A stretch of 64,000 nt of DNA from Streptomyces agglomeratus (lineage in GTDB: Bacteria; Actinomycetota; Actinomycetes; Streptomycetales; Streptomycetaceae): positions 2,811,001 through 2,875,000 of the forward strand of contig NZ_MEHJ01000001.1 of NCBI RefSeq assembly GCF_001746415.1, written 5' to 3'. The notes under the pieces are model-generated. The model was not told the origin of the DNA and did no database searches. It saw only the letters and a list, made by a program, of their open reading frames with translations. Shown in pieces: positions 21,503 through 24,071 of the stretch (positions are counted from its first letter, which is position 1; the number at the start of each line of letters is the position of its first letter). The translations under genes were made by a program, and so were the position numbers.

Positions 21503-21543
21503 CGCGTCAGCGCGTCAGCACGTCAGCACGTCAGCACGTCAGC
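21503..21543. repeat. 8-bp tandem repeat CGCGTCAG/CACGTCAG, five copies
   Basis: Five consecutive octamers (two CGCGTCAG, three CACGTCAG) occupy the first 40 bases downstream of, and including, the stop codon of the polyprenyl synthase gene on the minus strand. Confidence 0.9.
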
Positions 21544-22588
21544 GGGTTCTCCGGGTCACGAACTCGGCGAGCGACAGAAGGTCGCCGGCCGCCGCGAGGT
21601 CCGGAACCGCGCGGGAGAGGTGCTGCACGGCCTGGGCCATACGGTCCGCCGCGTGCCCCTGGGCCCAGTCACGCCCGCCCGCCCGGTCGACGGCGTCGGC
21701 CGCGCGCCGGACGGCGGCCGCGTCCAGCGGCCCGGCGTACAGGGCGGCCAGCTCGGCCGCGGCCTCGGTGTCCGAGGTCAGCGCCGCCACGACCGGGAGG
21801 GACTTCTTGTGGGCCACCAGATCGGCGCCCGCAGGCTTCCCCGTGTGGGACGGGTCGCCCCAGATCCCGATCAGGTCGTCGATGAGCTGGAACGCCAGCC
21901 CCGCCTCCCTCCCGAAGGCGTCCATGGCCGCGACCTCCTCGTCGTCCGCGCCCGCGTAGAGCGCGCCGAGGGCGCACGCGCAGCCGAGCAGGGCTCCCGT
22001 TTTCGCCTCGGCCATGGTCAGGCATTCGTCGAGCGACACCTCCCCCGGGCCACGCCGCTCGAACGCGCAGTCCGCCTGCTGTCCCGCGCACAGCTCGATG
22101 ACACAGGCGGCGAGCCGCGCCGACGCCCTTGCCGCCGCCGGGTGCGGGTCCTCCGCGAGCAGCCGCAGGGCGAGGGCGCACATGGCGTCCCCGGCGACGA
22201 TGGCGTCCGGTACGCCGAACACCGTCCAGGCCGTGGCCCGGTTTCGGCGCGTCGGGTCCTCGTCGATGACGTCGTCGTGGAGCAGCGTGAAGTTGTGCGC
22301 GAGCTCCACGGCGGCCGCGGCCCGAACCGCCCGGCCCGGGTCCCCGCCGAGCGCCTGGGTGGCGGCCAGGACGAGTGCGGGCCTGATCGCCTTGCCCGAC
22401 TGCCCCTCGGCGGGTGTGCCGTCGGCCCGCTCCCAGCCGAAGTGGTACATCGCGATCCGCCGTATGGACCCCGGCAGGCTCTCCACTCCCGTGCGCAGCT
22501 GCGGGTCGACGGTCCTGCGGGTGCGTTCGAGGAGGGCCGCCGCCTCTTGCCCCTCGGTGGCGGCCGCTTCCGCTCTGGTCATCGTCAC
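21539..22588 (-). CDS. Polyprenyl diphosphate synthase, putative encapsulin cargo
   Basis: About 349 residues. The GTG at 22588 has GGAGG eight bases upstream; the ATG at 22582 is an alternative. The trans-isoprenyl diphosphate synthase motifs are intact: first aspartate-rich LLHDDVIDEDPTRRNRATAW (DDxxD) and second QLIDDLIGIWGDP, with GKAIRPALVLAATQALGG as substrate helix. It condenses IPP with an allylic diphosphate; chain length is not readable. It starts 70 bases after the family 2B encapsulin shell gene on the same strand, matching the known class of two-gene encapsulin operons with polyprenyl transferase cargo. The N terminus before the catalytic fold is short (about 30 residues), so a long disordered targeting region is not evident. 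An 8-bp repeat starts at the stop codon. Confidence 0.9.
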   Translation of the reverse strand: MTMTRAEAAATEGQEAAALLERTRRTVDPQLRTGVESLPGSIRRIAMYHFGWERADGTPAEGQSGKAIRPALVLAATQALGGDPGRAVRAAAAVELAHNFTLLHDDVIDEDPTRRNRATAWTVFGVPDAIVAGDAMCALALRLLAEDPHPAAARASARLAACVIELCAGQQADCAFERRGPGEVSLDECLTMAEAKTGALLGCACALGALYAGADDEEVAAMDAFGREAGLAFQLIDDLIGIWGDPSHTGKPAGADLVAHKKSLPVVAALTSDTEAAAELAALYAGPLDAAAVRRAADAVDRAGGRDWAQGHAADRMAQAVQHLSRAVPDLAAAGDLLSLAEFVTRRTR

Positions 22589-22658
22589 GGTCACTTCCTC
22601 CAGCAGTGCTTGTACGGTGCTCCCCCGGGAACACGGACCGCCTGGGTGAGTGCCGGGC

Positions 22659-24071
22659 TCAGCGCCACCTGCCGATCTCGACGTTCTCCAGGACCCCGAG
22701 CGCGTCCGGCACGAGCACCGCCGCCGAGTAGTACGCCGTGACCAGGTACCGGATGATCGCCTGCTCGTCGATGCCCATGAAGCGCACGGACAGGCTCGGC
22801 TCGATCTCGTCCGGGATGCCGCTCTGCTGGAGTCCGACGACGCCCTGCTCGGCCTCGCCGGTACGCATGCAGATGATCGAGGTCGTACGGGCGTCACTCA
22901 CCGGGATCTTGTTGCACGGGAAGATGGGGACACCGCGCCAGGTGGGCACCCGGTTGCCGCCGATCTCGATGCTTTCCGGGTTCAGACCGCGCTTGTTGCA
23001 CTCGCGGCCGAACGCGGCGATGGCGCGGGGGTGGGCGAGGAAGAGCTTGGAGCCGCGCCGCCGCGACAGCAGCTCGTCCATGTCGTCCGGGCTCGGCACG
23101 CCGTCGTGCGGCTGGATGCGCTGCCCGTAGTCGCAGTTGTGGAGCAGTCCGAACTCACGGTGGTTGATGAGCTCGTCCTCCTGGCGCTCGCGCAGCGCCT
23201 CCACGGTGAGCCTCAACTGCTGCTCGGTCTGGTTCATCGGCTGGTTGTAGAGGTCCGCGACCCGGCTGTGGACCTTCAGTACGGTCTGCGCGACGCTCAG
23301 CTCGTACTCGCGCGGCGCCGCGTCGTAGTCGACGTACGTGTGCGGGACGACGGGCTCGCCGACGTGGCCCGCGGACAGGTCGATCGGCGCCTCGCCGTAC
23401 TTGTTGGTGCGCTGGCGGGGCAGCGACCGTACGCGCGTGAGGTGATTGCGCAACGTTTCTGCTCGATCGGCGAGCGTCATGACGGACTGGCGGGACAGCG
23501 TGAGGACCGTGCACGCGGTCGCGGCGCGGACCGTGCACGCCCAGGTGTCTTCCTCCTCGACGAGCGCCTGGTCGCCGAAGTAGGCCCCGTCGGCGAGGAC
23601 TCCGAGGACCGCCTCGTCGTCGTACGCCCCGTCGGCGACCTTCTCCACCCTGCCGTGCGCCAGCAGATAGACCGTGTCCGCGGCATCACCGGCGGCCGCG
23701 ATCACGTCTCCCGCCGCGTACTCCCGCTGCTCGCACCGCTGGGCCAGCTCGGCCAGCACCCCCTCGTCGCCGTACGTCCTGAGCGCCGGCAGCTCGTTCA
23801 GCTCGCCGGGAATGACCTCGACGCGCTCCCCGGTCTGTACGAAAGTCACCCGCCCGTCGCCCACCGCGTAACTGAGCCGCCGGTTCACCCGGTACGTACC
23901 GCCCTGGACCTGGACCCACGGCAGCATCCGCAGCAGCCACCGCGAGGTGATCTCCTGCATCTGCGGTGCGGACTTGGTGGTGGTCGCCAAGTTCCGCGCT
24001 GCGGCCGTACCGAGACTCTGCTGCGGCTGCGCCTGCTGTTCGCGGATCTCGGAACCTGCCTCGACCGACAT
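22659..24071 (-). CDS. Family 2B encapsulin nanocompartment shell protein with cNMP-like domain
   Basis: 470 residues. Older annotation calls such proteins Crp-like or nucleotide-binding, but the layout fits family 2B encapsulins: an N-terminal arm (1-45), the start of an HK97-type fold, an inserted cyclic-nucleotide-binding-like domain (about 100-215; [20 protein letters not shown] and [15 protein letters not shown]) and the remaining HK97 shell domain ending in [18 protein letters not shown]. There is no HTH. In the phosphate-binding cassette the usual conserved Glu and Arg are Asp and no Arg, so cAMP binding is doubtful. The shell would assemble in the cytoplasm and enclose the polyprenyl synthase encoded next. 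Divergent from a PGRP amidase. Confidence 0.88.

Follow-up and report, generated by a model that had tools for sequence, protein, structure and literature searches.

Shell and prenyl synthase genes at the locus

The window, i.e., the whole stretch of 64,000 nucleotides analysed (C1:2811001-2875000), lies in a 9.13 Mb genome and carries a shell gene followed by a prenyl diphosphate synthase (PT) gene, both on the reverse strand. The shell gene (22659..24071, −) is intact and encodes a family 2B encapsulin shell protein of 470 residues, and the likewise intact PT gene (21539..22588, −) encodes 349 residues from a GTG at 22588, its best start. These co-directional reading frames were located where the original prediction had placed them, with PT beginning 70 bases past the shell gene. 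The gap between them (22589..22658, −) contains the Shine-Dalgarno sequence GGAGGAAG (22594-22601) ahead of the PT start, and no terminator-like site was found in its 70 bases. The shell gene is the only intact one in the genome; a second was ruled out, and only a shell remnant was seen (L002/L050, G000:C1:7698827-7698985), a 79-residue frame in which 49 residues align at 61% identity with the 372-420 stretch of the window shell.

The Pfam matches of the shell protein were PF19307 (454 bits, residues 218-468) and PF00027 (65 bits, residues 116-202), and because these were the only two, it contains no HTH family, as expected from the earlier description of a 470-residue protein that has a cNMP-like insert but no HTH. 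The cNMP-binding-fold insertion (residues 116-202; 23466..23726, −) precedes the main shell domain (residues 218-468; 22668..23420, −). The predicted family 2B identity was borne out by the NCBIfam equivalog model encap_f2b (NF041163), which the protein passed with 778.4 bits (cut-off, 400), and by the solved chain 9bhu_A, which was matched over residues 1-469 (649 bits). The family 2A shell 6X8M was matched over residues 232-468. Homology to PF19307, 9bhu, and 6X8M thus assigns the protein an HK97-type shell domain; the AlphaFold model, based on an alignment of 24 close relatives, had a mean pLDDT of 42.8, and the assignment was made by homology alone. The domain order is the same in 9bhu, 9bhv, and 9bi0 and in the S. 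lydicus shells Sl-Enc2 and Sl-Enc1, which we take to be 9bje and 9bix, respectively, with near full-length matches of 594-649 bits. The S. lydicus pair is described as part of a putative xylulose kinase system (PMC12407261, accessible text), whereas in the window a lone shell gene is paired with a prenyl synthase.

The absence of the usual Glu and Arg from the cNMP phosphate cassette was also found as predicted, with Asp167 (23571..23573, −) at the Glu site and Trp177 (23541..23543, −) at the Arg site. Trp occupies the Arg site in all three of these related shells, whereas 9bhu retains the Glu that is Asp167 in the window shell. Two samples were compared: 46 shells taken from fetched loci after filtering by length and N-arm, the window's own among them, and 121 rows comprising the 120 closest database shells and the window shell. 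The Arg site is occupied by Trp in 39 of the 46 (4 gaps) and in all 121, and Glu alone was kept at its site in 16 and 20, respectively; the Glu and Arg pair occurred in none of the 46 or the 121. The window shell lacks the phosphate-cassette Glu and Arg of a functional cyclic-nucleotide-binding domain. Since their loss is common to the family, ligand gating particular to this locus, which had been suggested as a departure from described systems, was rejected. According to PMC12407261 (accessible text), cyclic nucleotides are not bound by family 2B cNMP-fold domains.

The prenyl synthase and its pairing with the shell

PT matched PF00348 (193 bits) and the NCBIfam model NF041169 (f2_encap_cargo4; 493.8 bits, cut-off 450), and its fold resembles that of 3nf2 (TM 0.90, 42% identity). 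The first Asp-rich motif, DDVID (22262..22276, −), and the second, DDLIGIWGD (21854..21880, −), contribute Asp104, 105, and 108 and Asp236 and 237, respectively, all invariant in 24 aligned PT sequences, the window's included; the enzyme is therefore intact, as proposed. It scored below threshold with both FPP and GGPP models and came nearest to a GGPP one.

The whole N-terminal extension of PT before the conserved core comprises 16 codons (22541..22588, −), with pLDDT < 50 at residues 1-8 only, and we found no cargo tag or motif in the protein. The N-terminal domain, disordered and 50-100 residues long, that has been described for encapsulin-linked PTs (PMC8346489, accessible text) is absent from the window PT. 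A misread start hiding such a domain was rejected: a stop codon lies two codons upstream of the match in L023, and the 16-residue length recurs in 27 of the 30 best-scoring Streptomyces loci (L028, L034, and L041 have 12, 24, and 68; the last probably reflects a wrong automatic start choice). In other genera, 11-13 residues precede the core at 9 of 9 PT loci, which lack that domain too. The short N terminus that had been pointed out is thus real, but it is not unusual. Among the lower-identity Streptomyces loci, by contrast with these lengths, 18 of 20 have 27-71 residues (automatic start choice). In a tree of 59 PT sequences, these 18 long-tailed rows and the short-tailed L189 formed one Streptomyces group (support 89/99), while the deepest branch separated off the nine rows from other genera, all of them short, and the short N terminus is thus probably the older state. 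The longer tails of this group (18 of the 20 loci L174-L193) are often Pro-rich, some with LERRxSI, and are perhaps a tag gained later.

A PF19307 shell was present in 384 of the 392 Streptomyces genomes drawn, and a PT relative at E <= 1e-60 in 390, paralogues counted. The shell adjoins PT at all of the 30 best-scoring Streptomyces loci (the window's own included) and at all of 20 lower-scoring ones (50/50 overall), which excludes chance pairing. In the accessible parts of two published surveys, the polyprenyl diphosphate synthase gene is the commonest neighbour of family 2b shell genes (PMC8049743, 2021), and 900 PT operons were counted (PMC8346489). With the pairing found genus-wide and already in print, the window locus is an ordinary example of a known shell-PT arrangement. 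The cargo label for PT is likewise already NCBI's own (f2_encap_cargo4); nothing in its sequence sets the window PT apart from the NF041169 proteins, whose cargo role is annotation.

Geosmin synthase, its tag, and its co-occurrence with shell genes

The geosmin synthase of the window genome (G000:C1:7256413-7258635) lies 4.42 Mb from the sole intact shell gene. Geosmin-synthase-like cyclases of shell operons are described as carrying the motif GPTGLGTSAAR between their cyclase domains and at the C terminus (PMC8346489, accessible text), and the window-genome enzyme has GPTGLGTSAAQ near its C terminus, differing in the final motif residue; a linker copy was not recognisable in it. NF041168 was its best match, with 1163.2 bits, short of the cut-off of 1200. 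A degenerate DNA pattern for TG[LF]GTxA matched one place in 9.1 Mb, the geosmin synthase gene; a reversed control pattern also gave 1 match, and the background is therefore approximately 1. A stricter pattern (final Arg, G/C-ending Ala codons) gave five matches and missed both the shell and the geosmin synthase gene.

Across 24 geosmin synthases from the window clade and its near relatives, mean identity to the commonest residue was 0.93 in the tag columns, compared with 0.81 in the columns preceding the tag, 0.47 in those following it, and 0.83 over the last 40 core residues; wherever both places are listed, these 24 genes lie away from the shell-PT locus. In the genus sample, the linker or tail carried the tag in 39 (strict) or 42 (loose) of 46 geosmin synthases, and one group has it in the linker, as GPGTSAADVGALLA. 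The tag pattern, which was written after the sequences had been seen and has the published consensus as its core, gave 82 matches in 75 geosmin synthase frames (62 with at least one; the 75 include duplicates, with 66 distinct), against 0.88 expected in shuffled sequences.

The tag GLGTSAAR resembles SLGTAAAR in the shell's own N-arm (15 residues, conserved in family 2B shells; 23973..24017, −), and a similar arm occurs in L134. When the 66 geosmin synthases were scored with a profile built from shell N-arms only, the best match fell in a flexible stretch, linker or tail, in 45 of them, such stretches making up 10% of residues; in a separate scoring, the best match overlapped the tag as defined here in 40 of 66. 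Shells entered the profile if they matched L.T.AAR and aligned over 380 residues, a filter that favours the motif; the rows lost were mainly fragments. Of 135 shell windows, that of the N-arm gave the highest count (control mean, 8.5), and because unrelated Gly-rich windows reached up to 35, composition explains part of the match. Family 2B shells with an N-arm of the SLATAAAR or SLTTAAAR type (SLGTAAAR in L129) were also observed in genomes without a detected geosmin synthase (L126-L130). Within the accessible text of the open literature on encapsulins and geosmin, we found neither loading in trans nor the resemblance of the cargo tag to the shell arm described.

In a draw of 296 genomes from the class, a family 2 shell was present in 73 of 73 geosmin-positive and 16 of 223 geosmin-negative genomes, or, counted by genus, in 17 of 17 and 6 of 88, respectively. 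Eleven of the 16 had only shells of a weaker score band, mostly in short frames, which we read as 2A-like, a label taken from score band and frame length and not from a 2A model; a 2B shell without a geosmin synthase was found in five class genomes (G423, G553, G576, G613, and G629). One of the 73 (G407) also had only a weaker-band shell, located beside its geosmin synthase; this shell gene (L119, G407:C12:466473-467198) lies in a 365-residue frame and aligns to window-shell residues 227-467 only. The draw of 392 Streptomyces genomes, used for the genus count in place of a set of 22 shell-positive ones picked by hand, comprised 377 genomes with both, 7 with the shell only, 1 with geosmin synthase only, and 7 with neither; two candidates were scored per genome, so that some geosmin synthases may have been missed. 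Fisher P values were 5e-54 (class) and 1e-10 (genus), kinship being ignored in both. The geosmin-only genome, G102, is in 1420 contigs, and five of the seven shell-only genomes hold a PT orthologue (G099, G266, G322, G331, and G382). Of the seven genomes with neither, the five that were looked at all keep other terpene synthases, with the tag in 0 of 10 readable ones (of 12). Among 29 terpene synthase loci in total, the sequence could be read in 25, of which two were tagged, in the shell-positive G266 and G274, each beside a shell gene. Many Streptomyces genomes hold further shells.

Outside Streptomyces, 34 of 42 geosmin-positive genomes have a shell gene no more than 10 kb from the geosmin synthase gene, or 33 without G621, which is linked only through a second geosmin synthase copy (46% identical). 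The corresponding count in Streptomyces was 1 of 31 genomes, where 19 of the 30 unlinked genomes have the two genes on different contigs. G284, one of the genomes that supplied the 24 geosmin synthases compared above, has an additional geosmin synthase located next to a second shell gene. Six of the eight exceptions in other genera were fetched (G598, G592, G488, G584, G599, and G637), and a shell lies beside a window-type PT in all six. Clusters of two shells, PT, and geosmin synthase were found at L122 and L134 (genomes G546 and G449; PT 49-51% identical), and at L142 (G470) PT and geosmin synthase are next to a shell truncated where its contig stops. A second prenyl synthase (31-35% identical) adjoins shell and geosmin synthase at six loci from other genera (L107, L109, L110, L111, L120, and L121); thus, two types of prenyl synthase occur beside shell and geosmin synthase.

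Shell and geosmin synthase genes are also neighbours in published clusters, as far as the accessible text of the sources goes. In cyanobacteria, the arrangement is geoA-cnb-cnb, in which the cnb genes are termed regulators (PMC7251104) and, in our reading, encode family 2B shells; in myxobacteria, encapsulins are described within geosmin clusters (PMC12224551). In the window genome, by contrast with both, the two genes are 4.4 Mb apart and the shell is paired with PT. Because the myxobacterial clusters are in print, the partnership of geosmin synthase and encapsulin is not new; what is new here is that it persists without linkage.

A proposed terpene compartment encoded at two loci

With a probability of roughly 0.55, we consider this locus to supply the shell of a terpene compartment together with the enzyme that makes its precursor; the tagged cargo, loaded in trans, would be the geosmin synthase encoded elsewhere. 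Sixty copies of the shell protein would assemble, and the GPTGLGTSAA tail of geosmin synthase could bind the inner face of the shell, at a site that perhaps also suits the look-alike N-arm SLGTAAAR. PT would make the allylic diphosphate used by geosmin synthase, farnesyl diphosphate, inside or at the shell, and geosmin-type products would then exit. The cNMP-fold domain, which in a solved relative lies outside over the two-fold pore, is not expected to respond to cyclic nucleotides. Farnesyl diphosphate is a product type of the enzyme class to which PT belongs. It is also the substrate of geosmin synthase (PMC8549240, accessible text). A more specific form, proposed for PT-linked shells of Streptomyces such as this one, is put forward tentatively, at rather less than even odds: the tag would copy the shell N-arm (SLGTAAAR vs. 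GLGTSAAR), a single site on the inner face would be contested by cargo and N-arm, and the untagged PT would feed the compartment.

The sole intact shell, the published tag, the co-occurrence, the linkage in other genera, the conservation of the tag, and the three clusters of shell, PT, and geosmin synthase together suggest such a split arrangement at the level of sequence. Against it stand the shells without geosmin synthase, G102, in which no shell was detected, the further shells of many Streptomyces genomes, which could take on the role there, the proximity of PT to a GGPP model, the degenerate tag in some enzymes, and the NF041168 score (1163 < 1200). Family 2B shells linked to PT are common across Streptomyces. 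If the arrangement is real, the parts of the protein compartment that produces a familiar bacterial odorant are spread over the chromosome, the neighbours of a shell gene are by themselves a misleading guide to its cargo, and a tag that copies the shell arm would suggest a way to tune loading.

PT itself could be loaded through its short N terminus, a surface of its fold, or its oligomer, which is compatible with geosmin synthase loading in trans and which we regard as rather unlikely: its place beside the shell at 50 of 50 genus loci, its f2_encap_cargo4 label, the longer Pro-rich tails of one Streptomyces group, and the frequency of polyprenyl diphosphate synthases next to family 2b shells (PMC8049743, accessible text) speak for it, whereas the window protein has no motif, 16 pre-core residues of which 8 are disordered, and none of the described domain of 50-100 residues (PMC8346489, accessible text). 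The original prediction of PT as cargo was deduced from the neighbourhood and agrees with NCBI's label, but PT has no tag, whereas the geosmin synthase of the genome has the published one. It is a serious possibility, albeit clearly short of an even chance, that the shell holds several tagged terpene cyclases, geosmin synthase being one of them, and this, too, is compatible with the split arrangement. Shell and PT orthologues are kept in 5 genus genomes without a detected geosmin synthase, and one cyclase of the window genome (L005/L053, G000:C2:319572-320162) has STGLPGGLGASAAHV in its N-terminal tail, as read by eye, so that it may be a second cargo loaded in trans. Likewise by eye, no GLGT-type tag is present in the genome's remaining three intact cyclases (L006-L008); in L006, a less close resemblance, GLTTSAAE, occurs early in the enzyme domain.

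Shell and geosmin synthase could instead be old traits of large-genome actinomycetes that share a lineage but no physical partnership in Streptomyces. This is improbable in our view, even though both Fisher tests ignore phylogeny, the two genes are unlinked in the window genome, and in another Streptomyces eshA lies in an operon with the 2-MIB genes under BldM while geoA is under WhiH (PMC8549240, accessible text). A mere common history fits poorly with the linkage seen in other genera (34 of 42 geosmin-positive genomes), with the joint absence in 7 genus genomes, the 5 examined of which keep other terpene synthases, and with the tag being the most conserved part of the geosmin synthase tail. 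The S. griseus shell EshA (SgEnc) is reportedly of family 2B, loads 2-methylisoborneol synthase through a disordered domain, and does not bind cAMP; its cargo gene is said to lie beside the shell gene, whereas in the window it is an untagged PT that does so.

Two further terpene cyclase loci of the window genome were noted. The L005/L053 product is a single-domain cyclase resembling the first domain of geosmin synthase, with no shell gene in the 16 kb fetched around it, and L009/L051 (G000:C1:8036752-8036985) is a terpene cyclase remnant with an internal stop codon.
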